DNA of 39,690 bases from a virus. Under the pieces are notes generated by a model that saw only the letters and a program-made list of their open reading frames with translations, did not search any database and was not told the DNA's origin. Location: IMG/VR virus record IMGVR_UViG_3300046665_000397, positions 1 through 39,690 of that record, one strand, 5' to 3'. Position numbers and translations under genes: made by a program. Every line of letters starts with the position of its first letter. Position 1 is the stretch's first letter. Below are positions 590 through 34,918 of the stretch, piece by piece.

Positions 590-702
590 CTGGACATTTT
601 CACACGTGGCAGCGGTCTTTCACAATAAACAGGTTGTGGTGATCCTGTTCTCCTTTCAAAGAAGTGTTTGAAACTACTTCTGCCACGTCTGAAAGTGCCC
701 AG
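590..702 (+). ncRNA. Strongly folded element (structured leader RNA or packaging-site RNA/DNA)
   Basis: A long closing helix joins 590-602 to 690-702 (12 of 13 positions pair, one by G-T wobble, one A-C mismatch). It continues after a C-C mismatch with nine perfect pairs, 604-612 (ACGTGGCAG) with 680-688 (CTGCCACGT). Inside are two hairpins: AACAGG 628-633 with CCTGTT 644-649, and AAGT-GTT 662-668 with AAC-t-ACTT 672-679. The element ends 25 bases before the start of the transglycosylase gene and lies just right of the cos-like stretch. It could be a leader RNA of the late operon, a separate RNA acting in packaging, or a structured DNA site. I see no promoter of the right-arm type in front of it. 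Confidence 0.6.
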
Positions 703-3287: not shown

Positions 3288-5033
3288 ATGGCATTATCAA
3301 ATACCGCAACACCTAAATATTACGGAGAATTTCGTGAAGCAGTAATAAATGGCGATATACCAGTTTGCAGAGAAATTTCAATGGAAATGAATCGTATAGA
3401 CGGGTTGATAAATAACCCAGCCATCTATTACGATGGTAAAGCAGTTGATGGATTCATTGAATATTGTGAAAATGAATTAACCCTAACAGATGGTTCGGAT
3501 TTAATATTACTTGACTCATTTAAAGTTTGGGCCGAGCAGGCACTTGGGTGGTTCTACTTTGTTGAAAGAAGTGTTTATGTTCCAAACCAAGATGGCCGAG
3601 GCGGTAAATTCGTCCGTAAGCAGGTTAAAAAGAGACTTGTAAATAAACAATATCTAATAGTTGCCCGTGGAGCAGCTAAATCGATGTATGGGTCATGTAT
3701 CCAGAATTACTTCTTAAATGTTGACACTTCTACTACCCAACAACTAACTACAGCCCCAACCATGAAGCAAGCCGAAGAAGTTCTATCGCCAATAAGAACC
3801 GCAATAACGCGTTCGAGAGGTCCGCTATATAAATTCCTAACTGATGGCTCATTACAAAATACGACAGGTTCAAAAGCAAACCGTGTTAAGCTTGCGTCAA
3901 CAAAGAAAGGAATTGAGAATTTCCTGACTGGTTCCACATTAGAGATACGACCTATGACAATAGACAAGTTACAAGGGCGTAGGGATAAGGTTGCTACAGT
4001 CGATGAATGGTTGTCGGGAGATATTCGCGAAGATGTAATCGGAGCTATCGAACAGGGTGCATCCAAACAGGATGATTATCTTATTATAGCTATGAGTTCA
4101 GAAGGCACAGTTCGTAATGGTAGTGGCGATACAATCAAAATGGAACTCTTAGATATACTTAAGGGTGAATATGTTAATCCACATGTATCCATTTGGTGGT
4201 ATAAGTTAGATGATATTAAGGAAATTAATGACCCATCTATGTGGTTAAAGGCAAATCCTAATCTTGAAAAAACTGTAACTTATGAAGTATACCAGCAAGA
4301 TGTCGAAAGAGCTGAGAAGGCTCCAGCTGCTAGGAATGATATTCTAGCTAAGAGATTTGGTATTCCAATGGAAGGCTACACATATTTCTTCACTTATGAA
4401 GAGACATTAACTCATAGAAAGCGTAGCTTCTGGGGATTACCTTGTGCATTGGGCGCCGACTTATCTCAGGGAAATGACTTCTGTGCATTCACTTTCTTAT
4501 TTCCATTGAGGAATGAAGAGTTCGGTGTGAAAACCAGAGCTTATATTAGCGAATTAACTCTTATGAAACTACCAGCAGCTATGCGTATAAAATATAATAG
4601 TTTTATTGATGAGGGCAGTTTAATTGTATTAGATGGCACAGTCCTTGATATGATGGAAGTGTATGATGACCTTGATAAGCATATAAACGATTTACAATAT
4701 GATATTAGATGTTTTGGATTTGACCCATATAATGCTAAAGAATTTGTAACTCGTTGGGAAAATGAAAACGGTCCATTTGGACTAGAGAAAGTAATACAAG
4801 GAGCTAAGACTGAATCAGTTCCATTGGGCGAATTAAAAACTCTATCTGAGGAACGAATGTTACTATTTGATGAGGAATTAATGTCATTTACTATGGGCAA
4901 TGCTGTTACATTAGAAGATACAAATGGTAATCGTAAGCTATTAAAGAAGAGATATGAACAAAAGATAGATAACGTATCGGCATTAATGGATGCTTATGTT
5001 GCCTATAAAGCTAACAAAGATGCTTTTGAATAA
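3288..5033 (+). CDS. terL: Terminase large subunit (ATPase and nuclease)
   Basis: 581 residues, the DNA-packaging motor. The ATPase domain shows Walker A ARGAAKS at 126-132, Walker B VATVDE at 235-240, and coupling motif IIAMSSEG at about 266-273. The RNase H-like nuclease domain follows with GADLSQGND (D391), CFGFDP (D479) and a C-terminal Asp in the KIDNVSALMDA region. Length and motif order fit the HK97/Terminase_1 class. The ribosome site AAAGGTG precedes ATG 3288. It sits right before the portal, the normal order. Confidence 0.95.
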   Translation: MALSNTATPKYYGEFREAVINGDIPVCREISMEMNRIDGLINNPAIYYDGKAVDGFIEYCENELTLTDGSDLILLDSFKVWAEQALGWFYFVERSVYVPNQDGRGGKFVRKQVKKRLVNKQYLIVARGAAKSMYGSCIQNYFLNVDTSTTQQLTTAPTMKQAEEVLSPIRTAITRSRGPLYKFLTDGSLQNTTGSKANRVKLASTKKGIENFLTGSTLEIRPMTIDKLQGRRDKVATVDEWLSGDIREDVIGAIEQGASKQDDYLIIAMSSEGTVRNGSGDTIKMELLDILKGEYVNPHVSIWWYKLDDIKEINDPSMWLKANPNLEKTVTYEVYQQDVERAEKAPAARNDILAKRFGIPMEGYTYFFTYEETLTHRKRSFWGLPCALGADLSQGNDFCAFTFLFPLRNEEFGVKTRAYISELTLMKLPAAMRIKYNSFIDEGSLIVLDGTVLDMMEVYDDLDKHINDLQYDIRCFGFDPYNAKEFVTRWENENGPFGLEKVIQGAKTESVPLGELKTLSEERMLLFDEELMSFTMGNAVTLEDTNGNRKLLKKRYEQKIDNVSALMDAYVAYKANKDAFE

Positions 5034-25560: not shown

Positions 25561-25566
25561 GATGAT

Positions 25567-25592
25567 TCGCAAAAATAACGTATCCTATAATG
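25567..25592 (+). promoter_or_regulatory. Phage promoter P1 (YCGC-N7-AC-N6-TATAAT class)
   Basis: TCGC 25567-25570, AC 25578-25579, TATAAT 25586-25591, then G. First of 20 copies with identical spacing. The YCGC box sits at about -31 if TATAAT is read as a sigma-A -10, and no TTGACA-like -35 box exists in any copy. Position supports promoter function: an intrinsic terminator lies upstream and a ribosome site downstream. Confidence 0.8.
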
Positions 25593-25622
25593 AGAAACTA
25601 AAGTTTGAAAGGAGAATGTAAA

Positions 25623-26066
25623 ATGTTTAAATTCACCAAAAAGGACAAAAGGACAAATCTTGAAAGGGAAATAGATGAGGTTTTAGTTAAAATAACTAGA
25701 ATAAAATCTGAGCTAGATAATAGCCCCAGTGAGGAACTTGATGAAAGGATAAAATCGTTAATGAAAGATATGTCGAACGTAGATTCAGGAAGTTTAGACT
25801 ATCTGAATATGGCCAAGTCTCTAGAAATATTATACAAAACGAAAGCTAGTATAAAGAGCAGGTCAGAAGAGTATTCAGAAATGGTTAAAAACCATAAAGA
25901 ACTATGTGAGACAAGAGAAAAAATAAAGGAACGAAATAAAGAAATCAAAAAGGCTCTTATCACTGGAGGTATACAATTAGTCGGATTGGCAATAGTAGTA
26001 AAACACGAAGACCTTCATGTAATAACAAGTAAGGCATTTAGTCATATTCCTTGGGTACGTTCGTAA
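25623..26066 (+). CDS. Charged helical phage protein with hydrophobic C-terminus
   Basis: 147 residues from ATG 25623, six bases after GAAAGGAGA. The TTG at 25605 overlaps that site. The first 110 residues are highly charged and helical (heptad-like KITRIKSELD, RIKSLMKDM, KSRSEEYSEMVKNHKELC). A hydrophobic stretch, ITGGIQLVGLAIVV, and a KHEDLHVITSKAFSHIPWV tail follow. It is likely a coiled-coil tether at the membrane. No family function is known to me. Confidence 0.7.
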   Translation: MFKFTKKDKRTNLEREIDEVLVKITRIKSELDNSPSEELDERIKSLMKDMSNVDSGSLDYLNMAKSLEILYKTKASIKSRSEEYSEMVKNHKELCETREKIKERNKEIKKALITGGIQLVGLAIVVKHEDLHVITSKAFSHIPWVRS

Positions 26067-26100
26067 CAGATACAACTCAGACAAAAATAGAATCTATATA

Positions 26101-26137
26101 AAAGGGTGTGTAAAAACATACCTTTTTATTTTTGCCT
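26101..26137 (+). terminator. Terminator after the 25623-26066 gene
   Basis: AAAGGGTGTG 26101-26110 pairs with CATACCTTTT 26117-26126 (two wobbles) around loop TAAAAA, then a T-rich tract. Its 3' end leads directly into promoter P2. Confidence 0.85.
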
Positions 26138-26140
26138 ACC

Positions 26141-26166
26141 CCGCATAAATAACACATCTTATAATG
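26141..26166 (+). promoter_or_regulatory. Phage promoter P2
   Basis: CCGC 26141-26144, AC 26152-26153, TATAAT 26160-26165, G next. It drives the 34-residue membrane peptide at 26199. Confidence 0.8.
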
Positions 26167-26198
26167 AAAAATAGTTAATTTTGAAAGGGGTTTTTATT

Positions 26199-26303
26199 GT
26201 GAGAATCGATATTAAGTCATTTATATTAGGAGCAATTGTTGGAGGTTGTACGATAATATATAGGGCATCAGTCGCTGTAGCAAGAGACAAAGTTAAAAAA
26301 TAG
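26199..26303 (+). CDS. 34-residue membrane microprotein
   Basis: GTG start 26199, ten bases after GAAAGGGG. The peptide reads MRIDIKSFILGAIVGG, CTIIYRASVAVARDKVKK. One short membrane helix (residues 8-20, Gly-rich) is followed by a basic cytoplasmic tail. It is too short for standard gene callers. The start, promoter in front and terminator behind make it a complete one-gene unit. Function unknown. Confidence 0.65.
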   Translation: MRIDIKSFILGAIVGGCTIIYRASVAVARDKVKK

Positions 26304-26314
26304 ACTAGAAACGG

Positions 26315-26335
26315 AGAAGCTTAGGCTTCTTTTTT
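26315..26335 (+). terminator. TTAG-loop terminator 1
   Basis: AGAAGC 26315-26320, loop TTAG, GCTTCT 26325-26330, T-tract to 26335. Confidence 0.9.
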
Positions 26336-26338
26336 AGC

Positions 26339-26364
26339 TCGCGATAATTACAATGCATATAATG
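26339..26364 (+). promoter_or_regulatory. Phage promoter P3 (ncRNA 1)
   Basis: TCGC 26339-26342, AC 26350-26351, TATAAT 26358-26363, G 26364. No ribosome site or open frame follows. The downstream transcript folds as ncRNA 1. Confidence 0.8.
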
Positions 26365-26457
26365 AAGAAGACTGGGTTACCAGGTTAATAGTTCAATGGT
26401 AGAACGTTCGAGCAATCGAGAGACGTAAGTTCGAAGCTTACAATTCTTTTTTTATTT
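26364..26457 (+). ncRNA. ncRNA 1: tRNA-like RNA without an anticodon loop
   Basis: This unit has a promoter and T-tracts but no open frame. It can form the following elements: closing pairs GAAGAA 26364-26369 with TTCTTT 26444-26449; hairpin CTGG-GTTA-CCAG 26372-26383; a D-arm look-alike GTTC-AATGGTA-GAAC 26391-26405, preceded by TA as in tRNA positions 8-9; TCGA-GCAA-TCGA 26408-26419 where the anticodon arm should be; a five-base variable stretch; and a perfect T-arm GTAAG-TTCGAAG-CTTAC 26425-26441. It lacks a normal acceptor stem, an anticodon and CCA, so it is not a working tRNA. An alternative pairing, ACGT 26404-26407 with 26423-26426, competes. Confidence 0.7.
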
Positions 26458-26460
26458 TTT

Positions 26461-26486
26461 TCGCATAATATACATACATTATAATG
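26461..26486 (+). promoter_or_regulatory. Phage promoter P4
   Basis: TCGC 26461-26464, AC 26472-26473, TATAAT 26480-26485, G next. It reads into the 79-residue gene at 26512. Confidence 0.8.
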
Positions 26487-26511
26487 AAAACATATTATAG
26501 GAGTGATAAAA

Positions 26512-26751
26512 ATGATAAAAAAACTTAAGAAATTTATGTTAAGAATGCAACTTAAAAGGTGTGGACTTAAAGAGATTAAATTAGGTAAAGAATATCAAGA
26601 TATCTGCGACGTAATTATGGATGGGATAATAAAAGGGGAGGATATAAGTAAAATTGAAAGATTACAATTGAAACGAAGATTTATTCATAGAGATAGATTA
26701 GATCTTATTGATAGAAGATTCGAATTGGAAAGGACAATTTTAAGGGCTTAA
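26512..26751 (+). CDS. Small basic protein of unknown function
   Basis: 79 residues from ATG 26512, eight bases after AGGAG. The GTG at 26503 overlaps that site. It is very basic at the start (MIKKLKKFMLRMQLKRCGLKE) and helical throughout, ending ERLQLKRRFIHRDRLDLIDRRFELERTILRA. It may bind nucleic acid. The last 20 bases form the 5' arm of the terminator. Confidence 0.65.
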   Translation: MIKKLKKFMLRMQLKRCGLKEIKLGKEYQDICDVIMDGIIKGEDISKIERLQLKRRFIHRDRLDLIDRRFELERTILRA

Positions 26752-26764
26752 TCGGTCCTTTTTA
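26729..26764 (+). terminator. Terminator overlapping the end of the 26512 gene
   Basis: AAGGAC 26730-26735 pairs with GTCCTT 26755-26760 across a 19-base loop. T-tract follows. Confidence 0.75.
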
Positions 26765-26770
26765 TTTACC

Positions 26771-26796
26771 TCGCAGAATTAACTCATCTTATAGTG
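26771..26796 (+). promoter_or_regulatory. Phage promoter P5
   Basis: TCGC 26771-26774, AC 26782-26783, TATAGT 26790-26795 (one of two copies with G in the fifth place). Confidence 0.75.
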
Positions 26797-26810
26797 AGAG
26801 GGGTGATATT

Positions 26811-26972
26811 ATGAAGAGTTTCATTATATTAACTATAGTGTTAGCAACAGTATTAATAGCTGTATCGTTATTATTAGATAACCTAATGGGTATATTTCTA
26901 GTATGTACAGTGGTATGTTTACTGTTAGACGCTAAGGAAAAGGAGAGACACAATAATAGACCTGACCGATAG
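26811..26972 (+). CDS. 53-residue two-TM membrane microprotein
   Basis: ATG 26811, ribosome site GAGGGGTGA. Two hydrophobic stretches, FIILTIVLATVLIAVSLLL (about 4-22) and MGIFLVCTVVCLLL (about 26-39), are joined by a short DN turn. The C-terminal tail is charged (DAKEKERHNNRPDR). Both ends are probably cytoplasmic. No family recognised. Confidence 0.65.
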   Translation: MKSFIILTIVLATVLIAVSLLLDNLMGIFLVCTVVCLLLDAKEKERHNNRPDR

Positions 26973-26975
26973 AGG

Positions 26976-26995
26976 GAAGCTTAGGCTTCTTTTTT
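26976..26995 (+). terminator. TTAG-loop terminator 2
   Basis: GAAGC 26976-26980, TTAG, GCTTC 26985-26989, T-tract. Confidence 0.88.
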
Positions 26996-26998
26996 AGC

Positions 26999-27024
26999 TC
27001 GCAAGAATAACAAACCATATAATG
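26999..27024 (+). promoter_or_regulatory. Phage promoter P6
   Basis: TCGC 26999-27002, AC 27010-27011, TATAAT 27018-27023, G next. Confidence 0.8.
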
Positions 27025-27056
27025 AAAACTAAAATATATTTTTAGGAGGACTTATT

Positions 27057-27203
27057 ATGAGTAGTATATTGATAGGAATAATGATTACTATAGGATGTAT
27101 ATCAGCAATGATTTATGCAATTTATAGAATTATAAAGGGATTTGTATTTATGATTAAAGGTACTGGCAGAAAAGTAAAAAGAAGATTTGTAAAGGGAGCT
27201 TAG
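27057..27203 (+). CDS. 48-residue membrane microprotein ending in the terminator
   Basis: ATG 27057, ribosome site TAGGAGGA. One hydrophobic segment (ILIGIMITIGCISAMIYAI, about 4-22) is followed by a basic C-terminal half (KGFVFMIKGTGRKVKRRFVKGA). The stop TAG 27201-27203 is part of the TTAG loop of the terminator. Function unknown. Confidence 0.65.
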   Translation: MSSILIGIMITIGCISAMIYAIYRIIKGFVFMIKGTGRKVKRRFVKGA

Positions 27204-27215
27204 GCTTTCTTTTTA
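27191..27215 (+). terminator. TTAG-loop terminator 3 (contains a stop codon)
   Basis: AAAGGGAGC 27191-27199, TTAG, GCTTTCTTT 27204-27212 with two wobbles. The loop TAG is the stop of the 27057 gene. Confidence 0.85.
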
Positions 27216-27218
27216 ACC

Positions 27219-27244
27219 TCGCCATAAATACATACTTTATAATG
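27219..27244 (+). promoter_or_regulatory. Phage promoter P7
   Basis: TCGC 27219-27222, AC 27230-27231, TATAAT 27238-27243, G next. Confidence 0.8.
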
Positions 27245-27271
27245 AAAGCATGATTTGAAAGGATAATTAAG

Positions 27272-27379
27272 ATGAAAAATTACAGTTTTGGACATATGGT
27301 GTTTGACTTTATTATGGTCATTCTAACAGGTGGTTTATGGCTTATTTGGGTTTTAATTAGATATTTAAGAACACATTAG
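27272..27379 (+). CDS. 35-residue membrane microprotein
   Basis: ATG 27272, eight bases after GAAAGGAT. The sequence MKNYSFGHMVFDFIMVILTG, GLWLIWVLIRYLRTH has one membrane helix (about 9-29) with Gly-Gly in the middle, two Trp, and a basic end. This looks like the small 'ILTGGLWLIW' membrane proteins seen in other phages and mobile elements. The function is unknown to me. Confidence 0.65.
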   Translation: MKNYSFGHMVFDFIMVILTGGLWLIWVLIRYLRTH

Positions 27380-27391
27380 AAAATAAAGGAG

Positions 27392-27412
27392 GAAAGCTTA
27401 GGCTTTCTTTTT
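27392..27412 (+). terminator. TTAG-loop terminator 4
   Basis: GAAAGC 27392-27397, TTAG, GCTTTC 27402-27407, T-tract. Confidence 0.9.
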
Positions 27413-27415
27413 AGT

Positions 27416-27441
27416 CCGCATAAATAACATACATTATAATG
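27416..27441 (+). promoter_or_regulatory. Phage promoter P8
   Basis: CCGC 27416-27419, AC 27427-27428, TATAAT 27435-27440, G next. Confidence 0.8.
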
Positions 27442-27470
27442 AAATCATATTTTGAAAGGGGATTTTAAAA

Positions 27471-27698
27471 ATGGAAAATGTTATAAAATTATATGAGGAA
27501 CATATAGAAAAGTTAATGAACCAACATGAGGATATAATGAATACGCTTAAACCGTTGAATGATGTAGAGGCATCTAGAGACGCAGAGTTAAGGGAATTCG
27601 TTAGCGATTTAATGGAATTAGCTACATATGTATCTAGCTGTATTACTGTAATAGAGTACAAGATAAAAATACTTAAAAGAATGATTGAAGAAGCTTAG
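27471..27698 (+). CDS. Helical protein of unknown function, ending in the terminator
   Basis: 75 residues, ribosome site GAAAGGGGAT. Two long amphipathic helices (ENVIKLYEEHIEKLMNQHEDIMNTL and RDAELREFVSDLMELATYVSSCITVIEYKIKILKRM) suggest a soluble helical hairpin or coiled coil. It ends MIEEA, where GAAGCTTAG is the terminator core. Confidence 0.7.
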   Translation: MENVIKLYEEHIEKLMNQHEDIMNTLKPLNDVEASRDAELREFVSDLMELATYVSSCITVIEYKIKILKRMIEEA

Positions 27699-27710
27699 GC
27701 TTCTTTTTTT
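27688..27710 (+). terminator. TTAG-loop terminator 5 (contains a stop codon)
   Basis: AGAAGC 27689-27694, TTAG 27695-27698, GCTTCT 27699-27704, long T-tract. The loop TAG stops the 27471 gene. Confidence 0.9.
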
Positions 27711-27714
27711 AACC

Positions 27715-27740
27715 TCGCAAGATTTACAAGCTATATAATG
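27715..27740 (+). promoter_or_regulatory. Phage promoter P9
   Basis: TCGC 27715-27718, AC 27726-27727, TATAAT 27734-27739, G next. Confidence 0.8.
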
Positions 27741-27763
27741 AAAGTAATTTCTTGGGGGATATT

Positions 27764-27871
27764 ATGAATAAGAAACAAAAACTTAGCGCTGCTATAGTTG
27801 CGATGAAAGTCGTTTACGTAATAGTAGAAGAAGGTTTGAAGATACTAAAAAATATTCAAATTGAGAAATAA
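27764..27871 (+). CDS. 35-residue amphipathic microprotein
   Basis: ATG 27764, ribosome site GGGGGAT. MNKKQKLSAAIVAMKVVYVI followed by VEEGLKILKNIQIEK. Predicted as a single amphipathic helix with a hydrophobic centre (AAIVAMKVVYVIV), perhaps lying on the membrane. No family recognised. Confidence 0.6.
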   Translation: MNKKQKLSAAIVAMKVVYVIVEEGLKILKNIQIEK

Positions 27872-27878
27872 TTAAATC

Positions 27879-27899
27879 GAAAGCTTAGGCTTTCTTTTT
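27879..27899 (+). terminator. TTAG-loop terminator 6
   Basis: GAAAGC 27879-27884, TTAG, GCTTTC 27889-27894, T-tract. Unlike the others it is not followed by a YCGC promoter. Confidence 0.9.
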
Positions 27900-27921
27900 A
27901 TTTCAAATAGGAGTGGTAGTA

Positions 27922-28128
27922 ATGAAAAAAACACACCCAAAAAGTAGGATAGTACAGTTCCATCATAGTTCAACACGTGCTAGTAAGCTATTAGATTGTG
28001 ATAATGGCAGTAGCGAGATAGTATTACAACTCGAAGAAGTACAACATTCGAAATTTGATTTTATTGCTGAGATAATTAACAAAAGTGACTATAATGTAGT
28101 AGAAAAAGTAGAGGAGGTGAGAATATGA
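27922..28128 (+). CDS. Small phage protein of unknown function
   Basis: 68 residues from ATG 27922, eight bases after AGGAG. The GTG at 27913 overlaps the site. Basic N-terminus (KKTHPKSRIVQFHHSSTRASKLL) then an acidic end. It overlaps the next gene by four bases. No promoter is seen between terminator 6 and this gene, so it needs readthrough or an unrecognised start. Confidence 0.6.
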   Translation: MKKTHPKSRIVQFHHSSTRASKLLDCDNGSSEIVLQLEEVQHSKFDFIAEIINKSDYNVVEKVEEVRI

Positions 28129-28304
28129 AGATATGCGGGGTATATACTATAAACAATACGGATGGGAGTACATTTTATAACACTGTACGTAATACCATAG
28201 ATAGTTTACAGGATGATGGTCAGGAAGTCGAAGTACAATATCAGGTAAACACTCTCTTAAATGGACAAATAGTACAGAGCGCTTTAATTTTAGGAAGAAA
28301 ATAA
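28125..28304 (+). CDS. Small protein, weakly Cse60-like
   Basis: 59 residues from ATG 28125, with GAGGAGGTGA upstream, overlapping the previous stop. The order strand-helix-strand (KICGVYTINN, FYNTVRNTIDSLQDDG, EVEVQYQVNTLLNGQIVQSALILGRK) resembles the tiny Cse60-type sporulation/phage fold. The match is by shape only. Confidence 0.6.
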   Translation: MKICGVYTINNTDGSTFYNTVRNTIDSLQDDGQEVEVQYQVNTLLNGQIVQSALILGRK

Positions 28305-28331
28305 TTTAATAGTTATAAAGGGGGTAAGGTT

Positions 28332-28433
28332 ATGCACTGGTTGGTAATTATAATTCTTGTATTTCTTAGCTTTCTATTCTATTCAATGGCAGTAGCAGCT
28401 GGTCGAGCAGATACAAAATCAGGTAATAAATAA
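28332..28433 (+). CDS. 33-residue membrane microprotein
   Basis: ATG 28332, ribosome site GGGGGTAAGG. MHWLVIIILVFLSFLFYSMA followed by VAAGRADTKSGNK: one membrane helix (3-22) and a short polar tail. It is nine bases ahead of the TTG/13 bases ahead of the ATG of the next gene, so part of an operon. Confidence 0.65.
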   Translation: MHWLVIIILVFLSFLFYSMAVAAGRADTKSGNK

Positions 28434-28446
28434 GGAGGAATTGGTT

Positions 28447-28851
28447 ATGGGAGAACATGTTAAAATACTAAAAGACAGTGGTGATACACGAGAATTTGGG
28501 ACCGGAGCAATTAGAGATATGGCGGAAGGAAAAGGACGTTTTGACTTATTGCCAGCGGCCGCATTACTTAGATTAGCTAAACATTATGAGGCTGGGGCTA
28601 AAAAATATGGAGATAGGAACTGGGAGAACGGTCAACCTATATCTGTATTAATTGATAGTGGGATGAGACACTTGTTCAAGTATTTAGACGGGTGGACGGA
28701 TGAGGACCATCTTTCGGCGGCTGCATGGAATATATTAGGGGCTATGTGGATGGAAGAAAAAAATCCAGCCATGCAAGATATAAAACCAAGGATTGATGCG
28801 GCAATTGGGTGGTTACAAAGACAAGAAGAGATGTGTAAAAGGGAGGATTAA
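28447..28851 (+). CDS. DUF5664 protein, dATP/dGTP diphosphohydrolase-type N-terminal domain
   Basis: 134 residues from ATG 28447. The TTG at 28441 is too near the AGGAGGAA site. The whole protein is the family domain: FGTGAIRDMAEGKGRFDLLP, LAKHYEAGAKKYGDRNWENG, LIDSGMRHLFKYLDGWTDEDH, LSAAAWNILGAMWMEE. The Glu/Asp/His residues in these blocks (EAGAKKYG, DEDHLSAAAWN) form the all-alpha pyrophosphatase-like metal site. Family members act on nucleotide pools in phages. The exact substrate here is not shown by the sequence. Confidence 0.85.
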   Translation: MGEHVKILKDSGDTREFGTGAIRDMAEGKGRFDLLPAAALLRLAKHYEAGAKKYGDRNWENGQPISVLIDSGMRHLFKYLDGWTDEDHLSAAAWNILGAMWMEEKNPAMQDIKPRIDAAIGWLQRQEEMCKRED

Positions 28852-28853
28852 TA

Positions 28854-29504
28854 ATGAAATTATTTTGTAGACACGAATGGGAAGAGGTTAGAGGGACTAG
28901 ACGTTTATATAACATAGGAACAAGTAAAGAGGCAAGATTTAAATGCTGCGAATGTGGAAAAGAGAAATGGTTTGATATATTTACAATGAAGAGGAATACG
29001 TACGTATTTAAAGAATATAATAAAGGTGCTATATCTGATGGTAGTCACACCTTCGATGAGCTATATCATCACAGAATGGTATTATTTTCAATAATATGTA
29101 GCAATTACAGTCCTTTAGCATGGAAATCTTGGAAACATCATGATGGAACTATGTATGAAAATTACTTCATAGTTGGAATTAATACACCTGAAGGTCAGTA
29201 TTCATATCACTATCATAAGGATAATTGGGATAAATTTAATGTTCCATATAAAGACTTTGCCCCCGAATGGGATGGACATAAACCAGAGGATATAGGGAGA
29301 TTATTAAGTTTACCAATTAACTTGGCTGACCTGATGGGCTGGTTACAGGGAGAAAAGTTTTTAATAGACGAACATTCGTCCACTATGACAGCCGATTTTG
29401 AGGATACACACAAATGGGAGTTAAGCAGGAATGTTTTTATAAACAAGGCTATGAAAAAGGTAGGTGAAATGACAGATGCCAAAGGACGTAAGTATAATGA
29501 ATAA
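28854..29504 (+). CDS. Zinc-ribbon / WDGH-domain phage protein
   Basis: 216 residues. The N-terminus has a ribbon with C5, H7 and C31, C34 (FCRHEWEE...CCECGKEKWF). Residues about 65-153 are a WDGH domain: TFDELYHHRMVLFSIICSNY, AWKSWKHHDGTMYENYFIVG, NTPEGQYSYHYHKDNWDKF, APEWDGHKPEDIGRLLSL. The last 60 residues are unassigned. WDGH domains occur as single proteins or fusions in phages and have no known activity. Three bases separate it from DUF5664, and its end overlaps the kinase start. Confidence 0.8.
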   Translation: MKLFCRHEWEEVRGTRRLYNIGTSKEARFKCCECGKEKWFDIFTMKRNTYVFKEYNKGAISDGSHTFDELYHHRMVLFSIICSNYSPLAWKSWKHHDGTMYENYFIVGINTPEGQYSYHYHKDNWDKFNVPYKDFAPEWDGHKPEDIGRLLSLPINLADLMGWLQGEKFLIDEHSSTMTADFEDTHKWELSRNVFINKAMKKVGEMTDAKGRKYNE

Positions 29505-30024
29505 GAAAATAGTTCTAATTAATGGTTCGGGGGGAGTTGGTAAAGACACTTTTATAGAGTTTTGTAGTCAATACGTACGTACACTTAATATATCAACTGT
29601 AGATAAGGTTAAAGAAGCTGCCAAGTTATTGGGTTGGAATGGTGGAAAAACTGAGAAAGATAGGTTATTTCTATCAAACCTTAAACTTACAGCGGTAGAT
29701 TATAACGACCATTCGTACAATTATATAAAAAAATCAATTGAAGATTTTATGAACCCAACAAGACATTCGCATTTACTATTTATACATGTTAGGGAACCTG
29801 GCGAAATAGAAAGGTTTGTAAAAGATTTTGGATGTTTAACTGTATTGGTTAGGAACAATAATGTTGCAGGTATATCTTCAAATATGGCCGATTCAAATGT
29901 TGAGAATTATAAGTACAATTATATAATTAATAATCATTATAGTTTAGACATATTAGATGAATCCGCCAGGGGATTTGTATTTGATATATTTAGTAATCGC
30001 TCGCGCAAAAAACTTTTCCTATAA
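29497..30024 (+). CDS. Deoxynucleoside monophosphate kinase-like P-loop protein
   Basis: 175 residues from ATG 29497, after AAAGGA and overlapping the previous gene. The 29476 start has no site. Walker A GSGGVGKDT occupies residues 10-18. HLLFIHVREPGEIERFV and TVLVRNNN are like the LID/NMP-binding parts of phage dNMP kinases, and the protein ends in a helical region. It would phosphorylate dNMPs for phage DNA synthesis. Its last eight residues are encoded by promoter P10, and its stop TAA lies in the TATAAT box. Confidence 0.75.
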   Translation: MNKKIVLINGSGGVGKDTFIEFCSQYVRTLNISTVDKVKEAAKLLGWNGGKTEKDRLFLSNLKLTAVDYNDHSYNYIKKSIEDFMNPTRHSHLLFIHVREPGEIERFVKDFGCLTVLVRNNNVAGISSNMADSNVENYKYNYIINNHYSLDILDESARGFVFDIFSNRSRKKLFL

Positions 30025-30026
30025 TG
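30001..30026 (+). promoter_or_regulatory. Phage promoter P10 (inside the end of the kinase gene)
   Basis: TCGC 30001-30004, AC 30012-30013, TATAAT 30020-30025, G next. Only copy with no terminator just upstream. Confidence 0.8.
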
Positions 30027-30041
30027 AAAGGGGTTGTTAAA

Positions 30042-30194
30042 ATGAATAAGATTGAAAAAATAGCAAGAGATGTATTGTTGAAACCATCAGGGAAACATAT
30101 TTTAGATGTACCAGGGGTTATGGAATTAAGCGATGATGAAATGCGACAATTATCAGTGGAAATTAAGAAACTCGAAAACAAAGAGGAAGCTTAG
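30042..30194 (+). CDS. 50-residue acidic protein ending in the terminator
   Basis: ATG 30042, ribosome site GAAAGGGG. MNKIEKIARDVLLKPSGKHI then LDVPGVMELSDDEMRQLSVE and a charged helix ending ENKEEA. TAG of the TTAG loop is the stop. Probably soluble, with no family known to me. Confidence 0.65.
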   Translation: MNKIEKIARDVLLKPSGKHILDVPGVMELSDDEMRQLSVEIKKLENKEEA

Positions 30195-30205
30195 GCTTTC
30201 TTTTT
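30185..30205 (+). terminator. TTAG-loop terminator 7 (contains a stop codon)
   Basis: GGAAGC 30185-30190, TTAG, GCTTTC 30195-30200 (one wobble), T-tract. Stops the 30042 gene. Confidence 0.88.
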
Positions 30206-30208
30206 AGT

Positions 30209-30234
30209 CCGCTAAAATAACACACCTTATAATG
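30209..30234 (+). promoter_or_regulatory. Phage promoter P11
   Basis: CCGC 30209-30212, AC 30220-30221, TATAAT 30228-30233, G next. Confidence 0.8.
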
Positions 30235-30259
30235 AAAAATAAAATTTTTGGAGGTTAAT

Positions 30260-30577
30260 ATGAAAAACGTAAAGGAATTCTGTAAAAAACACAAGAAAGA
30301 ACTTATCATTGGAGGAAGTCTTATAGGGGCAACAGTAATTGTTGTGCTGACTAAAGGTAAACTTAAAATGGTTAAAAAAGAGTTAATTGATGTTGCAGGA
30401 AAAAACGTAATTAGTTGGAAAGAAACAGGAAATTTTGTTGGATTAGAAAAAGTAAAAGAATTTATAGAATCAAATGCGAATAGCAATTCTCTATATGCAG
30501 TAGTAAAAGAAGGAGACGTTGGAAACGATGTATACTCTCTAATAGTATTGAATGGTGGGAATGATATAGTATTATGA
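30260..30577 (+). CDS. Single-TM membrane protein of unknown function
   Basis: 105 residues from ATG 30260, seven bases after GGAGG. The TTG at 30248 overlaps the site. A basic N-terminus (KNVKEFCKKHKKE) leads into a membrane helix (LIIGGSLIGATVIVVLT, about 14-31) and a soluble 70-residue C-terminal part with helix and strands, probably on the outside by the positive-inside rule. The same plan, a short basic start, Gly-rich helix and charged tail, recurs at 34945 and 35203. Confidence 0.7.
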   Translation: MKNVKEFCKKHKKELIIGGSLIGATVIVVLTKGKLKMVKKELIDVAGKNVISWKETGNFVGLEKVKEFIESNANSNSLYAVVKEGDVGNDVYSLIVLNGGNDIVL

Positions 30578-30581
30578 TCTT

Positions 30582-30604
30582 AAAGAGCTTTTGCTCTTTT
30601 TATT
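30582..30604 (+). terminator. Terminator after the 30260 gene
   Basis: AAAGAGC 30582-30588, loop TTTT, GCTCTTT 30593-30599, T-tract. Confidence 0.9.
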
Positions 30605-30630
30605 TCGCGTAAAAAACATCTCTTATAATG
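30605..30630 (+). promoter_or_regulatory. Phage promoter P12
   Basis: TCGC 30605-30608, AC 30616-30617, TATAAT 30624-30629, G next. Confidence 0.8.
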
Positions 30631-30655
30631 AAAAATAATTCTAGGAGGTTTTATT

Positions 30656-30889
30656 ATGGACGATGATAACAAGATTATTAAACTAGCTGCTGCTGGATTT
30701 ATTGGATTGGTTATGGTCCCTATAGTAATTAGGGTCACAACTGGTTTGGCAAACTCAGCAGTATGCGGAATAAGTAATGCTGTTGAAAGACGAAGATATA
30801 ACAAAAGAATTAAAAAGGGGTTAAAAGATGGAAGCATAGTCAAAATCGATGGAGTATACTATGAAGTATGCGAAATGGAGGAGGATTAA
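30656..30889 (+). CDS. Single-TM membrane protein of unknown function
   Basis: 77 residues, ribosome site TAGGAGG. A hydrophobic region (IIKLAAAGFIGLVMVPIVIRVTTGLANSAVCGI, about 7-39) is long enough for one tilted or two short helices. The tail after it is first basic (ERRRYNKRIKKGLKDGS) and then acidic. Terminator arm overlaps the last codons. Confidence 0.7.
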   Translation: MDDDNKIIKLAAAGFIGLVMVPIVIRVTTGLANSAVCGISNAVERRRYNKRIKKGLKDGSIVKIDGVYYEVCEMEED

Positions 30890-30902
30890 CTTTCCTCTTT
30901 TT
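30881..30902 (+). terminator. Terminator overlapping the end of the 30656 gene
   Basis: GAGGA 30881-30885 pairs with TCCTC 30893-30897, T-tract follows. Confidence 0.75.
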
Positions 30903-30904
30903 AT

Positions 30905-30930
30905 TCGCGTAAAAAACACACCCTATAATG
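30905..30930 (+). promoter_or_regulatory. Phage promoter P13 (ncRNA 2)
   Basis: TCGC 30905-30908, AC 30916-30917, TATAAT 30924-30929, G 30930. No start codon with a ribosome site is in the 115 bases that follow before the next promoter. Confidence 0.8.
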
Positions 30931-31046
30931 AGGAGAAAAAGTAGTTGAATATCAGTAAACTAGTAGAGATAGTAAGAGATCTAGCTTAAAGGATAAAGCG
31001 CCGATATAACCATCGGAGATATCGAGATCGTACTCCTTTTCTTTTT
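30930..31046 (+). ncRNA. ncRNA 2: branched structured RNA
   Basis: A non-coding unit between P13 and P14. Closing stem GAGGAG 30930-30935 with CTCCTT 31033-31038, directly before the T-rich end. Inside: hairpin TAGTT 30942-30946 / AACTA 30958-30962, and a three-way element closed by GATCT 30978-30982 / AGATC 31025-31029 that holds hairpins GCTT 30984-30987 / AAGC 30996-30999 and CCGAT 31001-31005 / ATCGG 31012-31016. A competing pair is CGATAT 31002-31007 / ATATCG 31019-31024. No homology to a known RNA class was recognised. Confidence 0.6.
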
Positions 31047-31047
31047 G

Positions 31048-31073
31048 TCGCATTTATTACATATCCTATAATG
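31048..31073 (+). promoter_or_regulatory. Phage promoter P14
   Basis: TCGC 31048-31051, AC 31059-31060, TATAAT 31067-31072, G next. Confidence 0.8.
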
Positions 31074-31103
31074 AAAATATAAAATATAAGGAGATGTTAT
31101 ATT

Positions 31104-31334
31104 ATGATAAGATGGATAAAGAACGATTTCATGTGTGTGAGAGAGGCTCTAGGTTGTCTAATAAATAGGAGGATTCCATTTGGAATAGCAATATTGTATT
31201 ACATAATCGTGGGGGTTCTAGCTGCACCACTTGGAATTGCATGTTGGATATATCTTATAGTATGGCGTAAGGTCACACTTAGAAAATTAGATAAAACGTT
31301 TGGTAAATATACCAGAGATGAAGAGGAAGCTTAG
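31104..31334 (+). CDS. Membrane protein of unknown function, ending in the terminator
   Basis: 76 residues, ribosome site AAGGAGAT. A basic N-terminal region is followed by IPFGIAILYYIIVGVLAAPLGIACWIYLIVW (about 24-54), probably two membrane helices in a hairpin with a Pro turn. The C-terminal tail is charged and ends DEEEA, with the stop from the terminator loop. Confidence 0.7.
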   Translation: MIRWIKNDFMCVREALGCLINRRIPFGIAILYYIIVGVLAAPLGIACWIYLIVWRKVTLRKLDKTFGKYTRDEEEA

Positions 31335-31345
31335 GCTTTCTTTTT
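31325..31345 (+). terminator. TTAG-loop terminator 8 (contains a stop codon)
   Basis: GGAAGC 31325-31330, TTAG, GCTTTC 31335-31340 (one wobble), T-tract. Not followed by a YCGC promoter. Confidence 0.88.
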
Positions 31346-31367
31346 AACCTTTGAAAGGGGAACCGCT

Positions 31368-31517
31368 ATGGATAAATCTTATGTAACTAAAGTTTGTCAT
31401 GTATGTAGGGGGGCTAAGAAGGTATCTAATTGGTACCACGATCCATTCCTGACTCCATGCGTCTGTTTAAAATGTGGCGGAAAAGGATACCTAATAATCA
31501 ACAAAACAATTAACTAA
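31368..31517 (+). CDS. 49-residue DnaJ-type zinc-finger microprotein
   Basis: ATG 31368, ribosome site GAAAGGGGAA. It carries CHVCRG (C10, C13) and, after a loop with a further C31, CLKCGGKGYL (C33, C36). Two Cys-x-x-Cys-x-Gly units are the zinc-binding half of the DnaJ cysteine-rich domain. There is no J domain. It may help fold or bind a partner. No promoter lies between it and terminator 8. Confidence 0.7.
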   Translation: MDKSYVTKVCHVCRGAKKVSNWYHDPFLTPCVCLKCGGKGYLIINKTIN

Positions 31518-31529
31518 TTATATTTTACC

Positions 31530-31555
31530 TCGCGAAAATTACACAGTATATAGTG
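31530..31555 (+). promoter_or_regulatory. Phage promoter P15 (ncRNA 3)
   Basis: TCGC 31530-31533, AC 31541-31542, TATAGT 31549-31554, G 31555. Confidence 0.75.
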
Positions 31556-31645
31556 AAAGGAAGTGGTGTAACACGAATGTAGAATCTTAAGTGATTCCGC
31601 CGCTGTAGGAGTTCGTTGCTCCCTGCAGCCCTTTCATTTTTATTT
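31555..31645 (+). ncRNA. ncRNA 3: cloverleaf-like structured RNA
   Basis: A non-coding unit between P15 and P16. Closing stem GAAAGG 31555-31560 / CCTTTC 31630-31635, then ATTTTTATTT as the terminator tail. Three arms inside: GTG-GTGTAA-CAC 31563-31574; GAATC-TTAAGT-GATTC 31582-31597; and a long arm CTGTA-GGAG 31603-31611 / CTCC-c-TGCAG 31619-31628 with seven-base loop TTCGTTG. The order of arms recalls a tRNA, but loop sequences do not fit one. No open frame with a ribosome site is present. Confidence 0.65.
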
Positions 31646-31648
31646 ACC

Positions 31649-31674
31649 TCGCGAGGAATACAACTCCTATAATA
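31649..31674 (+). promoter_or_regulatory. Phage promoter P16
   Basis: TCGC 31649-31652, AC 31660-31661, TATAAT 31668-31673. The only copy followed by A instead of G. Confidence 0.78.
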
Positions 31675-31704
31675 GAAAATTATATTCTTAGGAGGAATTA
31701 TATT

Positions 31705-31884
31705 ATGAAACAAATATGTAAAATATTATTAATAATGTTTATAGGGTTTATTCTTGGATGTGGATTGGCTGAGGCAAATACTCAGTATCAACGAGCAAAA
31801 GAGAAGAAACAAGATAGCGTAGCAATTAGTAAATTTCTAAAAGGTTTAAGTAATGATTACGGATTTGAATATACCGAAAATTAG
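31705..31884 (+). CDS. Small membrane protein, possible lipoprotein
   Basis: 59 residues, ribosome site TAGGAGGAA. The N-terminus MKQICKILLIMFIGFILGCG has a basic start, a hydrophobic core and ILGC with C19 in lipobox position, so it may be lipidated at Cys19 and displayed outside. Otherwise it is a one-TM anchor. The mature part is polar (LAEANTQYQRAKEKKQDSV and on). Small phage lipoproteins often block superinfection, but nothing here proves it. Stop TAG lies in the terminator stem. Confidence 0.65.
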   Translation: MKQICKILLIMFIGFILGCGLAEANTQYQRAKEKKQDSVAISKFLKGLSNDYGFEYTEN

Positions 31885-31905
31885 AGAGCTTCGGCTTTCT
31901 TTTTA
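31884..31905 (+). terminator. UUCG-loop terminator
   Basis: GAGAGC 31884-31889, loop TTCG, GCTTTC 31894-31899, T-tract. Same stem as the TTAG family but with a stable UUCG tetraloop. Confidence 0.88.
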
Positions 31906-31906
31906 T

Positions 31907-31930
31907 ATTTTAAAAAATGAGAGGAGAAAA
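31907..31930 (+). repeat. 24-bp direct repeat carrying a ribosome site, copy 1
   Basis: Identical to 32121-32144. The right half is TGAGAGGAGAAAA, the ribosome site of the gene that follows. Confidence 0.85.
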
Positions 31931-31935
31931 TCACT

Positions 31936-32118
31936 ATGGGTAAAGGTGATAGGTATATCCAAAGGAGGCAAGAGTTAATTCAGAGAAGTGAATTAATGAA
32001 TACTTTGAAGAATCGTCCTATTGACAGAAATTGGATTTCATTTACGGACACTAGAGTGGCTAAAGACGGACAACACAAACTTGCGAGCGATATAATGAAT
32101 AAGAAAAAGCATAAATAA
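31936..32118 (+). CDS. Small basic protein of unknown function
   Basis: 60 residues from ATG 31936, seven bases after GAGGAGAA. It is hydrophilic and Arg/Lys-rich (MGKGDRYIQRRQELIQRSEL, then NTLKNRPIDRNWISFTDTRV). No promoter of the array is seen between it and the preceding terminator. Confidence 0.6.
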   Translation: MGKGDRYIQRRQELIQRSELMNTLKNRPIDRNWISFTDTRVAKDGQHKLASDIMNKKKHK

Positions 32119-32120
32119 TA

Positions 32121-32144
32121 ATTTTAAAAAATGAGAGGAGAAAA
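32121..32144 (+). repeat. 24-bp direct repeat carrying a ribosome site, copy 2
   Basis: Same 24 bases as 31907-31930, here in front of a 12-codon open frame. Confidence 0.85.
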
Positions 32145-32148
32145 CACC

Positions 32149-32187
32149 ATGAATGAAAAAACTGAAAGCATAAAGGAGATGATATAA
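32149..32187 (+). CDS. 12-codon leader peptide or remnant
   Basis: ATG 32149 with the repeat's strong ribosome site encodes MNEKTESIKEMI and stops in a TAATG overlap with the next gene, whose own site (AAAGGAGAT) lies in its last codons. It is either a leader peptide coupling translation or the remains of a gene replaced next to the repeat. Confidence 0.4.
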   Translation: MNEKTESIKEMI

Positions 32188-32330
32188 TGCCATCGGAAAA
32201 ATATATTAGGTTAATATATCAATACTTAAAACAAGGAAAGTGGAAACAGAAGACGGAATATGTTAAACCAGAGGATTTAAAGAAATACGAAGACTTTAAA
32301 ATTATATCCCAGAAAGAAGTGTGGAGGTAA
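32187..32330 (+). CDS. 47-residue protein of unknown function
   Basis: ATG 32187, site AAAGGAGAT. MPSEKYIRLIYQYLKQGKWK followed by QKTEYVKPEDLKKYEDFKII: a basic helical start and a mixed C-terminus. Three bases separate its stop from the next start. Confidence 0.6.
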   Translation: MPSEKYIRLIYQYLKQGKWKQKTEYVKPEDLKKYEDFKIISQKEVWR

Positions 32331-32332
32331 TC

Positions 32333-32524
32333 ATGGAAAGAGAAATAGAACAATTAATTAGAGATAAGGCCAGAATATTAGCACAGCATTTTCCAACAAC
32401 CGCTAACTACGAGAGTAGATGTAGTTTATGGAAATGTGGATTACAGAAGGGGTTAGTGTCAGAGGAGCTATATAGTATGGCTGAAAAATACTATGGTAGT
32501 CTTTGGACATATGTCGGAGATTAA
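32333..32524 (+). CDS. 63-residue helical protein of unknown function
   Basis: ATG 32333 with site GGAGGTAATC. The 32321 start lies in that site. EREIEQLIRDKARILAQHFP and LWKCGLQKGLVSEELYSMAEKYYGSLWTYVGD look like a compact helical domain. It ends immediately before promoter P17. Confidence 0.65.
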   Translation: MEREIEQLIRDKARILAQHFPTTANYESRCSLWKCGLQKGLVSEELYSMAEKYYGSLWTYVGD

Positions 32525-32526
32525 CC

Positions 32527-32552
32527 TCGCAGAATTTACAAGGTATATAATG
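32527..32552 (+). promoter_or_regulatory. Phage promoter P17 (ncRNA 4)
   Basis: TCGC 32527-32530, AC 32538-32539, TATAAT 32546-32551, G 32552. Confidence 0.8.
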
Positions 32553-32617
32553 AAGAGATGGAAGCGTTTGAATGCACCAAGTAGAAGGAGGTTCTACACA
32601 TCTCTTTATATTTTTAA
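32552..32617 (+). ncRNA. ncRNA 4: three-way junction RNA presenting GGAGG in a loop
   Basis: Closing stem GAAGAGATG 32552-32560 pairs along its full nine bases with CATCTCTTT 32599-32607 (one wobble), followed by ATATTTTT. Two inner hairpins: GCGT-TTGA-ATGC 32564-32575 and the perfect GTAGAA-GGAGG-TTCTAC 32581-32597. The loop GGAGG is a Shine-Dalgarno sequence held out of any gene start. The element is either an independent 60-base RNA or the leader of the zinc-ribbon gene at 32638. Confidence 0.68.
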
Positions 32618-32637
32618 AATTGGAAGGAGATAATATT

Positions 32638-32784
32638 ATGATATTTGTATTGGTTTGTTCATGTGGATGTAGACATTTCGATTACAATGAAGAGGGTAAA
32701 TTCGTATGCACGGAATGCGGAGAGGAATACAATTATTGGGAAGCTGGCGGTCATCTGCTAGGAGTGGAGGATGACAATGAATAA
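32638..32784 (+). CDS. 48-residue zinc-ribbon protein
   Basis: ATG 32638 with GGAAGGAGAT seven bases upstream. An open frame from 32572 runs through ncRNA 4 and is not used. C8, C10 and C12 region (LVCSCGCRHFDY) and CTECGEEY (C24, C27) make a small zinc ribbon, with an acidic end. Likely binds nucleic acid or protein. Confidence 0.7.
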   Translation: MIFVLVCSCGCRHFDYNEEGKFVCTECGEEYNYWEAGGHLLGVEDDNE

Positions 32785-33001
32785 AAATAAAGTTAAAAAA
32801 TATGTAAAGATAGGTTTAATTATTACAATTGCTGTTGGATTGGCGACGTTAATAAATGGAGTTGTATTTAGCGAATCTACTCCATCTCTACATCTAGATG
32901 AGGATACTGATAACATAGACATGTATGATGATAAAGAATTTTATTACCTTACTCATAATGATGACGGAACAATGAATGATTATGGTAAGAGTCTTATATA
33001 A
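32777..33001 (+). CDS. Single-TM protein with acidic C-terminus
   Basis: 74 residues from ATG 32777, six bases after GGAGG. The ATG at 32771 touches that site. MNKNKVKKYVKIG leads into a membrane helix (LIITIAVGLATLINGVVF, about 14-31) and an acidic external tail (LHLDEDTDNIDMYDDKEFYY). It overlaps the previous gene by eight bases. Confidence 0.7.
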   Translation: MNKNKVKKYVKIGLIITIAVGLATLINGVVFSESTPSLHLDEDTDNIDMYDDKEFYYLTHNDDGTMNDYGKSLI

Positions 33002-33032
33002 CTAAATTATATTTTGAAAGGAGAAAATCACT

Positions 33033-33167
33033 ATGAAATTTTTATTGTTCGCTATAAATTTATACTTTAGACATATGAGGAAACCTCTTAAAGATATGAG
33101 TAGCGGGAAATTGACATCTGCAGTAATAACCACAGATGAATATATTATAACAATTAATCAATTATAA
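33033..33167 (+). CDS. 44-residue protein of unknown function
   Basis: ATG 33033 with site GAAAGGAGAA. MKFLLFAINLYFRHMRKPLK has a short hydrophobic, aromatic start, then DMSSGKLTSAVITTDEYIITINQL, possibly a beta hairpin. No family. Confidence 0.6.
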   Translation: MKFLLFAINLYFRHMRKPLKDMSSGKLTSAVITTDEYIITINQL

Positions 33168-33196
33168 AATAAGAATTTTGAAAGGAGACTAAATAA

Positions 33197-34003
33197 ATGA
33201 ATATAAAAGGAATAACCGAAATAACTAAAACTGTTGGAGGATTTGCGACTAAGCATTCTCCAACCATATTAACCGGCATAGGCGTAGCAGGAGTTATAAG
33301 TACAATTATATCAGCTCATAATGATACAATAAAAGCATTAGCTATACTAGATGATGAATTATTAGAGCGAAATCCAACATCTAAAGTTCAGCCGACTATA
33401 GACAAGATAACTGATGAGTTTACAAAGAAGGAAATAGTTAAATTAACCTGGAAATGTTATGTACCCACAGCGATTCTAGCAACAATAACTATGGGATGTA
33501 TTGTAGGTGGGAATTCAATAAACCTGCGTAGGAATGCGGCTCTTGCTGGAGCATATTCTCTAGCTGAGACAGCTTTAAAAGAATATAAGAATAAAGTTGT
33601 TGAGACCATGGGTAAAAATAAAGACAAAGAGATTAAAGAAGAAATAATTAAAGATAAACTTAGGGAAAACCCTTATTATAAGACAGAGGTTATACGTACT
33701 GGTAGGGGCGATACCCTATGCTATGATTCATATTCTGGGAGATATTTCTGGAGTGATATGAATGATATTAAGGCTGCTATAAATAATTTGAACATGAGAA
33801 TGAGAAATGAAAACTGGGCTACACTAAATGACTTCTATTCAGAAATAGATATTGAAGGTATAAAGGCTGGGGATTTATTGGGCTGGCACGTTAATTATGG
33901 AACCGTTGAATTGGATTATGACACTCATCTATCAGATGACGGACGACCATGTCTAGTTGTAGACTTTGATACTGAACCTAAATATTGGAAAATGGATTTT
34001 TAA
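33197..34003 (+). CDS. DUF6353-like phage membrane protein
   Basis: 268 residues, site GAAAGGAGA. The N-terminal part has a membrane helix (SPTILTGIGVAGVISTIISA, about 21-40), a helical loop, and a second hydrophobic segment (YVPTAILATITMGCIVGG, about 88-105). The C-terminal half is soluble: YKTEVIRTGRGDTLCYDSYS, GRYFWSDMNDIKAAINNLN, DLLGWHVNYGTVELDYDTHL. This order matches the DUF6353 family I know from gut Clostridia phages. Function is unknown. A second, related gene begins at 39326. Confidence 0.75.
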   Translation: MNIKGITEITKTVGGFATKHSPTILTGIGVAGVISTIISAHNDTIKALAILDDELLERNPTSKVQPTIDKITDEFTKKEIVKLTWKCYVPTAILATITMGCIVGGNSINLRRNAALAGAYSLAETALKEYKNKVVETMGKNKDKEIKEEIIKDKLRENPYYKTEVIRTGRGDTLCYDSYSGRYFWSDMNDIKAAINNLNMRMRNENWATLNDFYSEIDIEGIKAGDLLGWHVNYGTVELDYDTHLSDDGRPCLVVDFDTEPKYWKMDF

Positions 34004-34016
34004 GGGGGATTAAATA

Positions 34017-34142
34017 ATGGAAAAACAGAAGGTATATAATGTAGGTCATAAAATGGGTACAATGCTATGTTGGATATTTGTGGCCTCAGTTGCGTCTATT
34101 ACAATAGCTTTAACTGCGAAATTTATAATGTGGTTGTTTTAG
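34017..34142 (+). CDS. 41-residue membrane microprotein
   Basis: ATG 34017, site AAGGGGGAT. MEKQKVYNVGHKMGTMLCWI then FVASVASITIALTAKFIMWLF: one membrane helix with polar N-terminus. It is in the same operon as the DUF6353 gene, and its TAG overlaps the next ribosome site. Confidence 0.65.
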   Translation: MEKQKVYNVGHKMGTMLCWIFVASVASITIALTAKFIMWLF

Positions 34143-34151
34143 GAGGCTGCC

Positions 34152-34891: not shown

Positions 34892-34892
34892 A

Positions 34893-34918
34893 TCGCAGAA
34901 AAAACATAGCTTATAATG
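34893..34918 (+). promoter_or_regulatory. Phage promoter P18
   Basis: TCGC 34893-34896, AC 34904-34905, TATAAT 34912-34917, G next. No terminator separates it from the gene upstream. Confidence 0.8.

Follow-up and report, generated by a model that had tools for sequence, protein, structure and literature searches.

The anti-Shine-Dalgarno (anti-SD) core of 16S rRNA, CUCCUU, is complementary to AAGGAG, and in 16S rRNA the h45 hairpin stands before the tail that carries it. T7-type phages have intercistronic hairpins that are processed by RNase III. In Staphylococcus aureus, a C-rich unpaired motif of the RNA RsaA masks a Shine-Dalgarno (SD) sequence and creates an RNase III site (PMC3961350), and the pRNA of phage phi29 binds the connector and forms a multimeric ring through loop-loop interaction (PMC2366019). 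The locus analysed here has traits of all of these. It lies in a window of 39,690 nucleotides (positions 1 to 39,690 of the IMG/VR virus record IMGVR_UViG_3300046665_000397), where a long helix (P1) encloses a smaller hairpin (P2) and a copy of the anti-SD core, between the genome end and the packaging genes. The features are as follows.

525 to 560, no strand assigned: cos-region DNA CTCGCAAAATATACCCCCCTACCACATCGCCCGCCC, the right-end side of the junction, kept in relatives whose contigs span this junction
561 to 589, no strand assigned: physical left end of the linear genome, CCTAAAAAAATCCCCGGAGGGATATTTGG, and the spacer ahead of the helix, placed by contig and record starts
590 to 612, + strand: 5' strand of the long helix P1, the double-stranded RNA (dsRNA) stalk, with 21 of 23 positions paired with 680 to 702
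618 to 621, + strand: UUUC of upper P1, predicted from the comparative alignment to pair with GAAA at 670 to 673
629 to 648, + strand: hairpin P2 from the comparative alignment, ACAGG (629-633), loop UUGUGGUGAU and CCUGU (644-648)
650 to 657, + strand: CUCCUUUC, a copy of the 16S anti-SD core, unpaired or looped in most relatives
670 to 673, + strand: GAAA of upper P1, the putative partner of 618 to 621 in the comparative alignment
680 to 702, + strand: 3' strand of P1, pairing with 590 to 612
714 to 721, + strand: SD GAGAGGAG of the first gene, read from the sequence and complementary to 650 to 657 with one G-U
728 to 1450, + strand: SLT-domain (lytic transglycosylase-like) protein (Pfam PF01464, E 7.6e-19)
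1458 to 1793, + strand: phrog_4259 protein, from its position likely the small terminase subunit
1732 to 2202, + strand: HNH endonuclease (phrog_4321) of the packaging module
3288 to 5033, + strand: HK97-type terminase large subunit TerL (phrog_9, PF20441, PF03354)

The contigs of many independent relatives start exactly at CCTAAAAAAATCCCCGG, which corresponds to window position 561, and the same motif opens the records of Lactococcus phages 1706 and P078, Streptomyces phage Bing, and Arthrobacter phage JEGGS. The GC-rich DNA that the earlier note had described as cos-like and adjoining the helix is therefore the cos region, and the helix begins about 30 bases inside the left end. In relatives, the usual first gene 3' of the RNA element encodes the phrog_4259 protein; in the subgroup of the window, the SLT gene is inserted between the element and the packaging genes.

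P1 has one G-U pair (597/695) and two mismatches (594/698 and 603/689), and the 21 pairs among 23 opposed positions that had been reported for it can be read directly from the sequence. To call this far beyond chance, as had been done, is too strong for the window alone. When the whole window was scanned for inverted repeats without bias, P1 scored 36; the maxima of 30 dinucleotide-shuffled versions of the window averaged 30.1 (sd 2.0) and reached 35 at most. The segment 27191-27410 outscores P1 in the same scan with 37.5. The minimum free energy (MFE) fold of 580-712 has -46.7 kcal/mol (z -4.5 on the + strand and -5.2 on the - strand). Taken from this single sequence, P1 is only modestly beyond chance and one sequence is not decisive; the doubt is removed because relatives carry the same architecture.

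These relatives, viral contigs and clostridial prophages, were gathered by searches with TerL and phrog_4259, and a motif search added more. Those with the same terminase have, in the same location, a long P1 that encloses inner hairpins and has arms of different sequence. In an alignment of 22 sequences, 20 of 25 P1 pairs show double compensatory changes that keep the pairing, and the covariation score is 0.583, compared with 0.245 ± 0.019 for shuffles; sliding the partner strand gives no more than 0.18. The earlier note had looked to covariation in relatives to tell a structured RNA from a DNA site, in which bases rather than pairs would be conserved; here the pairs are conserved and the bases vary, which argues against a DNA site. 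A CUUU/AAAG block within P1 is nearly invariant in the 22-member alignment, so the P1 sequence is not wholly free. Otherwise it varies widely, and what is held is its length (median 33.5 bp, 10-90% range 26-41 bp), which makes a stalk of about 25-40 bp. The window's own element gave no match in an exact-sequence search, as expected if it is mainly structure that is conserved.

The conserved strand can be read from the imperfect pairs. G-U and A-C were scored alike when helices were located, and only stringent, well-paired segments were counted. There were 346 G-U against 116 A-C in 100 elements, with a G-U excess in 80 elements and a deficit in nine, and both subtypes agree (115:39 and 239:79). 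Chance helices, which served as a control, gave a G-U:A-C ratio of 264:207, and fourfold sites in TerL favour T over A only mildly. The excess of G-U over A-C indicates that the conserved object is an RNA of the + strand, sense to the packaging operon; such an asymmetry would be predicted by selection on a + strand RNA, unlike a DNA palindrome.

Comparison also revised the inner region, where two inner hairpins had been proposed. The hairpin at 629-633/644-648 stands; the other part of that claim does not, as CUCCUUUC is unpaired or looped and the helix appears to continue through 618-621/670-673. This upper part of P1 competes with the window's own MFE fold, which pairs UUUCAAA with UUUGAAA. 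The P2 loop UGGUGA is common in type A, the type of the window, in which the hairpin lies directly before the anti-SD core. Type A makes up 41 of the 103 elements classed, a count partly inflated by one search that required the UGGUGA loop. A covariance model (R1) detects one copy per genome in the type A phages in which it is found; it misses the divergent Lactococcus and Arthrobacter forms and is therefore not a model of the full family. As for a target of UGGUGA, its complement has no clear enrichment at type A gene starts (TCACCA, 7 against 3.0 expected), and the shorter complement TCACC occurs there 11 times against 8.1 expected.

The most conserved part of the element is the anti-SD core, which is absent from the earlier note. 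CTCCTT is present in 96 of 127 inner regions against four expected from shuffling, the 127 being distinct inner regions of helices of at least 20 bp at loci found by protein homology only; among the inner regions that lack it, several are chance folds inside coding sequence. The consensus of the motif is U-CUCCUUUC-RR, and its mean unpaired probability is 0.71, compared with 0.52 for other inner 6-mers. By single-sequence MFE folding, 63 of the 96 have it in a loop (hairpin loop, internal loop, or multiloop) and 33 have it mostly paired, as does the window itself; in elements other than type A, it sits in its own hairpin. The hallmark of an SD-masking RNA, a conserved and unpaired motif complementary to the SD, is present.

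The element occurs in metagenomic phages, Clostridia prophages, and cultured Lactococcus and Arthrobacter phages. Lactococcus phages 1706, P078, P092, P118, and P162 each have a stalk with two anti-SD-core loops. In the lactococcal phages, the core is kept within hairpin loops, GUC-CUCCUUAAA-GAC and AUGU-UCUCCUUU-ACAU, and the 3' flank differs. In Arthrobacter phage JEGGS, the element is located directly upstream of the phrog_4259 homologue, with CUCCUUUCAAGAG following a small hairpin, and its sequence is found in 31 Arthrobacter phage records. The usual place of the element is right before phrog_4259 and about 30 bases from the left end; in contigs L274, L291, L273, and L226, it is preceded by other genes on the cos side and lies 0.5-1.4 kb from the end. 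The helix is absent from Streptomyces phage Bing despite the same end motif, phrog_4259 homologue, HNH, and TerL, and from contigs L127, L155, and L112, whose end motif and genes are likewise the same. In those relatives, the packaging machinery therefore does without the element, which is tied neither to the cut site nor to one gene. Its displacement from cos, together with its absence from relatives that have cos and TerL, argues against a cos DNA site and against a universal packaging RNA.

Two further structures were seen at left genome ends. Gordonia phage Secretariat (L299, 1-250), which has related packaging genes, carries a long left-end helix that lacks the anti-SD core and may be a divergent form or something else. 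In contig L038, a tRNA-like fold (1650-1730, GGTTCGAATCC stretch) is located in the interval from the left genome end to the long helix.

Early-type promoter boxes were absent within 900 nt upstream of the element (58 elements), and in 11 relatives the closest such box upstream is at a distance of 4.0-4.4 kb. The element may thus be part of a longer transcript, and transcription across cos in a circular genome is possible. A search for sigma-70-like promoters in the stretch that separates the last gene from the element gave no consistent consensus. In the window, the promoter-like box CTCGCAnAAATAACAnAnCnTATAATGA has 19 strong copies, all on the + strand within 25566-35907, in the early part of the genome, and none in the late part (starts at 25566, 26140, 26338, 26460, 26770, 26998, 27218, 27415, 27714, 30000, 30208, 30604, 30904, 31047, 31529, 32526, 34892, 35140, and 35880). 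It has a -10 and a TCGC box in place of the usual -35, and close matches are found in 41 stretches of other viral contigs. The cos-region DNA at 525-538 (CTCGCAAAATATAC) resembles the first half of such a box (TTCGCATAATATAC at 26460) and is followed by CCCCCC where the early box has its -10. A terminator-like palindrome, GAAGCTTAGGCTTC and variants, followed by a T run, occurs in six copies within 26315-27909, most of them directly 5' of promoter boxes, which gives the small early genes the look of individual units, each with a promoter and a terminator of its own. The same region contains a weak Rfam tRNA match (26389-26441, 30.6 bits against a threshold of 29) that is not called by ARAGORN.

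Comparison of the relatives shows that the RNA structure, its strand, its position, and the display of the anti-SD core are all conserved, and with that core in its inner loops the element most likely serves translation control rather than DNA packaging. We see about an even chance that it is a leader RNA that masks ribosome-binding sites with its anti-SD loop, in cis or in trans. Within the late packaging mRNA, the element would form a structured part of the 5' (or an intercistronic) leader, in which a dsRNA stalk carries inner hairpins that expose CUCCUUUC. The loop would pair with GAAAGGAG-type SDs of phage mRNAs, those of its own operon and possibly others, and this pairing would delay or limit translation of the late genes. 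The stalk is a plausible RNase III substrate, and cleavage could free the RNA from the downstream mRNA or unlock that mRNA. We infer the transcription, the pairing of loop and SD in vivo, the RNase III step, and the mode of action in cis or in trans. A leader RNA controlling late translation had been named before as the simpler option, and the conserved RNA structure, its + strand, and its place directly upstream of the packaging operon lend it support.

For pairing in cis, the duplex of 714-721 with 650-657 in the window is estimated at -13.1 kcal/mol. The motif and the SD of its own gene have a mean of -14.07 kcal/mol against -13.73 kcal/mol when permuted, a marginal difference (p 0.049). 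The core fits SDs in general. Those of first genes are stronger than the SDs of later genes, an advantage that is equal for the 16S tail and so cannot be put down to the loop in particular. Between P1 and the SD, the linker has a median of 43.5 nt; in 7 of 96 members it is shorter than 15 nt and could hardly span a stalk of ~95 Å for pairing in cis. Linker lengths would thus permit looping in most members and not in some. A trans-acting RNA, cut by RNase III from the late leader and carrying the anti-SD mimic on its stalk, could compete with the 30S subunit for mRNAs and shift translation at the late switch, a tentative version to which we give about half the weight of the leader RNA in general.

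The stalk could instead process, stabilise, or antiterminate a cos-crossing transcript (as an RNase III site, 5' protection, or a put-like element), with CUCCUUUC binding a protein or having another use. The P1 sequence varies while its length is kept, as for the substrate of a dsRNA enzyme, the nearest early-type promoter 4.0-4.4 kb upstream in 11 relatives makes a longer transcript possible, and the element can stand between genes. We nevertheless consider this rather unlikely, as it leaves unexplained both that no inner sequence is better conserved than the anti-SD core and that several different inner folds present this core in loops. Clearly less likely still is a decoy of the 16S 3' end that titrates a factor recognising the tail (a defence nuclease, toxin, or maturation enzyme) and protects late ribosomes. 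The type A hairpin does lie directly before CUCCUUUC, as h45 does before the anti-SD, and the core is common to phages of Bacillota and Actinomycetota, yet only the part complementary to the SD is conserved: the base before the core is mostly U (C in 16S), A or G follows CUCCUUUC (U in 16S), and the lactococcal loops diverge right after CUCCUU. A conserved core with non-16S flanks indicates that conservation follows SD complementarity and not 16S identity.

That the element might be a part of the packaging motor, like phi29 pRNA, was the idea raised in the earlier note, and a branched RNA just inside the genome end beside the packaging genes, present once in each genome in which the model detects it, does suit an RNA bound to portal or terminase. 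It has fared poorly, and we hold it to be very improbable. Rfam 15 covariance models gave no match to the element and no pRNA in the whole window at the gathering threshold, and a search with relaxed E-value of 450-800 and seven related loci gave no pRNA match. (The relaxed matches that did appear, miRNA-like, Xist, snoRNA, and readthrough-knot, were dismissed as far below gathering scores.) Moreover, the helix is missing in Bing and in further relatives that share the cos motif, HNH, and TerL, and the anti-SD core, which a packaging RNA does not explain, points to mRNA or ribosome and not to the portal. A DNA site of cos, bound by terminase or HNH or forming a cruciform, is strongly disfavoured and the least credible of these readings. 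The start of the element about 30 bases from the left end in most relatives would fit it, but the arms vary in sequence, one strand shows a threefold excess of G-U over A-C, the distance to the end reaches 0.5-1.4 kb in some elements, and phages without the element keep the cos motif. With no sequence conservation, no fixed distance from the cut, and the G-U asymmetry, a cos DNA element was rejected.

The leader RNA thus preferred belongs to a large family of structured phage RNAs that is apparently uncatalogued, has no entry in Rfam, and accounts for a conserved, unannotated gap that many phages have at the genome end. A literature search that covered mainly the main texts of open-access papers found no description of the element, which may still be an unnamed candidate in a large screen (e.g., PMC8040213). 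If the model is true, a phage RNA that presents the ribosome's anti-SD core would be an unusual form of translation control, and the cultured phages among the members make direct testing feasible.

Like phi29 pRNA, the element is a branched RNA that has a long terminal helix and is encoded beside packaging functions at the left end of a tailed-phage genome; it differs in its motor (HK97-type TerL, HNH, and cos), in its absence from some relatives with the same terminase, and in its anti-SD core. Like the T7-type hairpins, it is a long hairpin that closely precedes phage genes within a polycistronic message, but there is one per genome where tested, with an anti-SD core and a stalk that covaries across a large family. 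The order of a hairpin and then directly CUCCUUUC is that of h45 and the anti-SD tail, from which the element differs in that only the SD-complementary core is conserved and that it is enclosed in a long helix. RNAs of the RsaA/RNAIII type of S. aureus share with it a structured RNA with an unpaired, C-rich, SD-complementary motif (PMC3961350), a second conserved loop (in type A of the element), and a dsRNA helix fit for RNase III; unlike them, the element is phage-borne, lies in the leader of a structural operon rather than in a free sRNA gene, has a much longer single stalk, and has putative SD targets. It is best called a new RNA family, one that would work like the known SD-masking RNAs.
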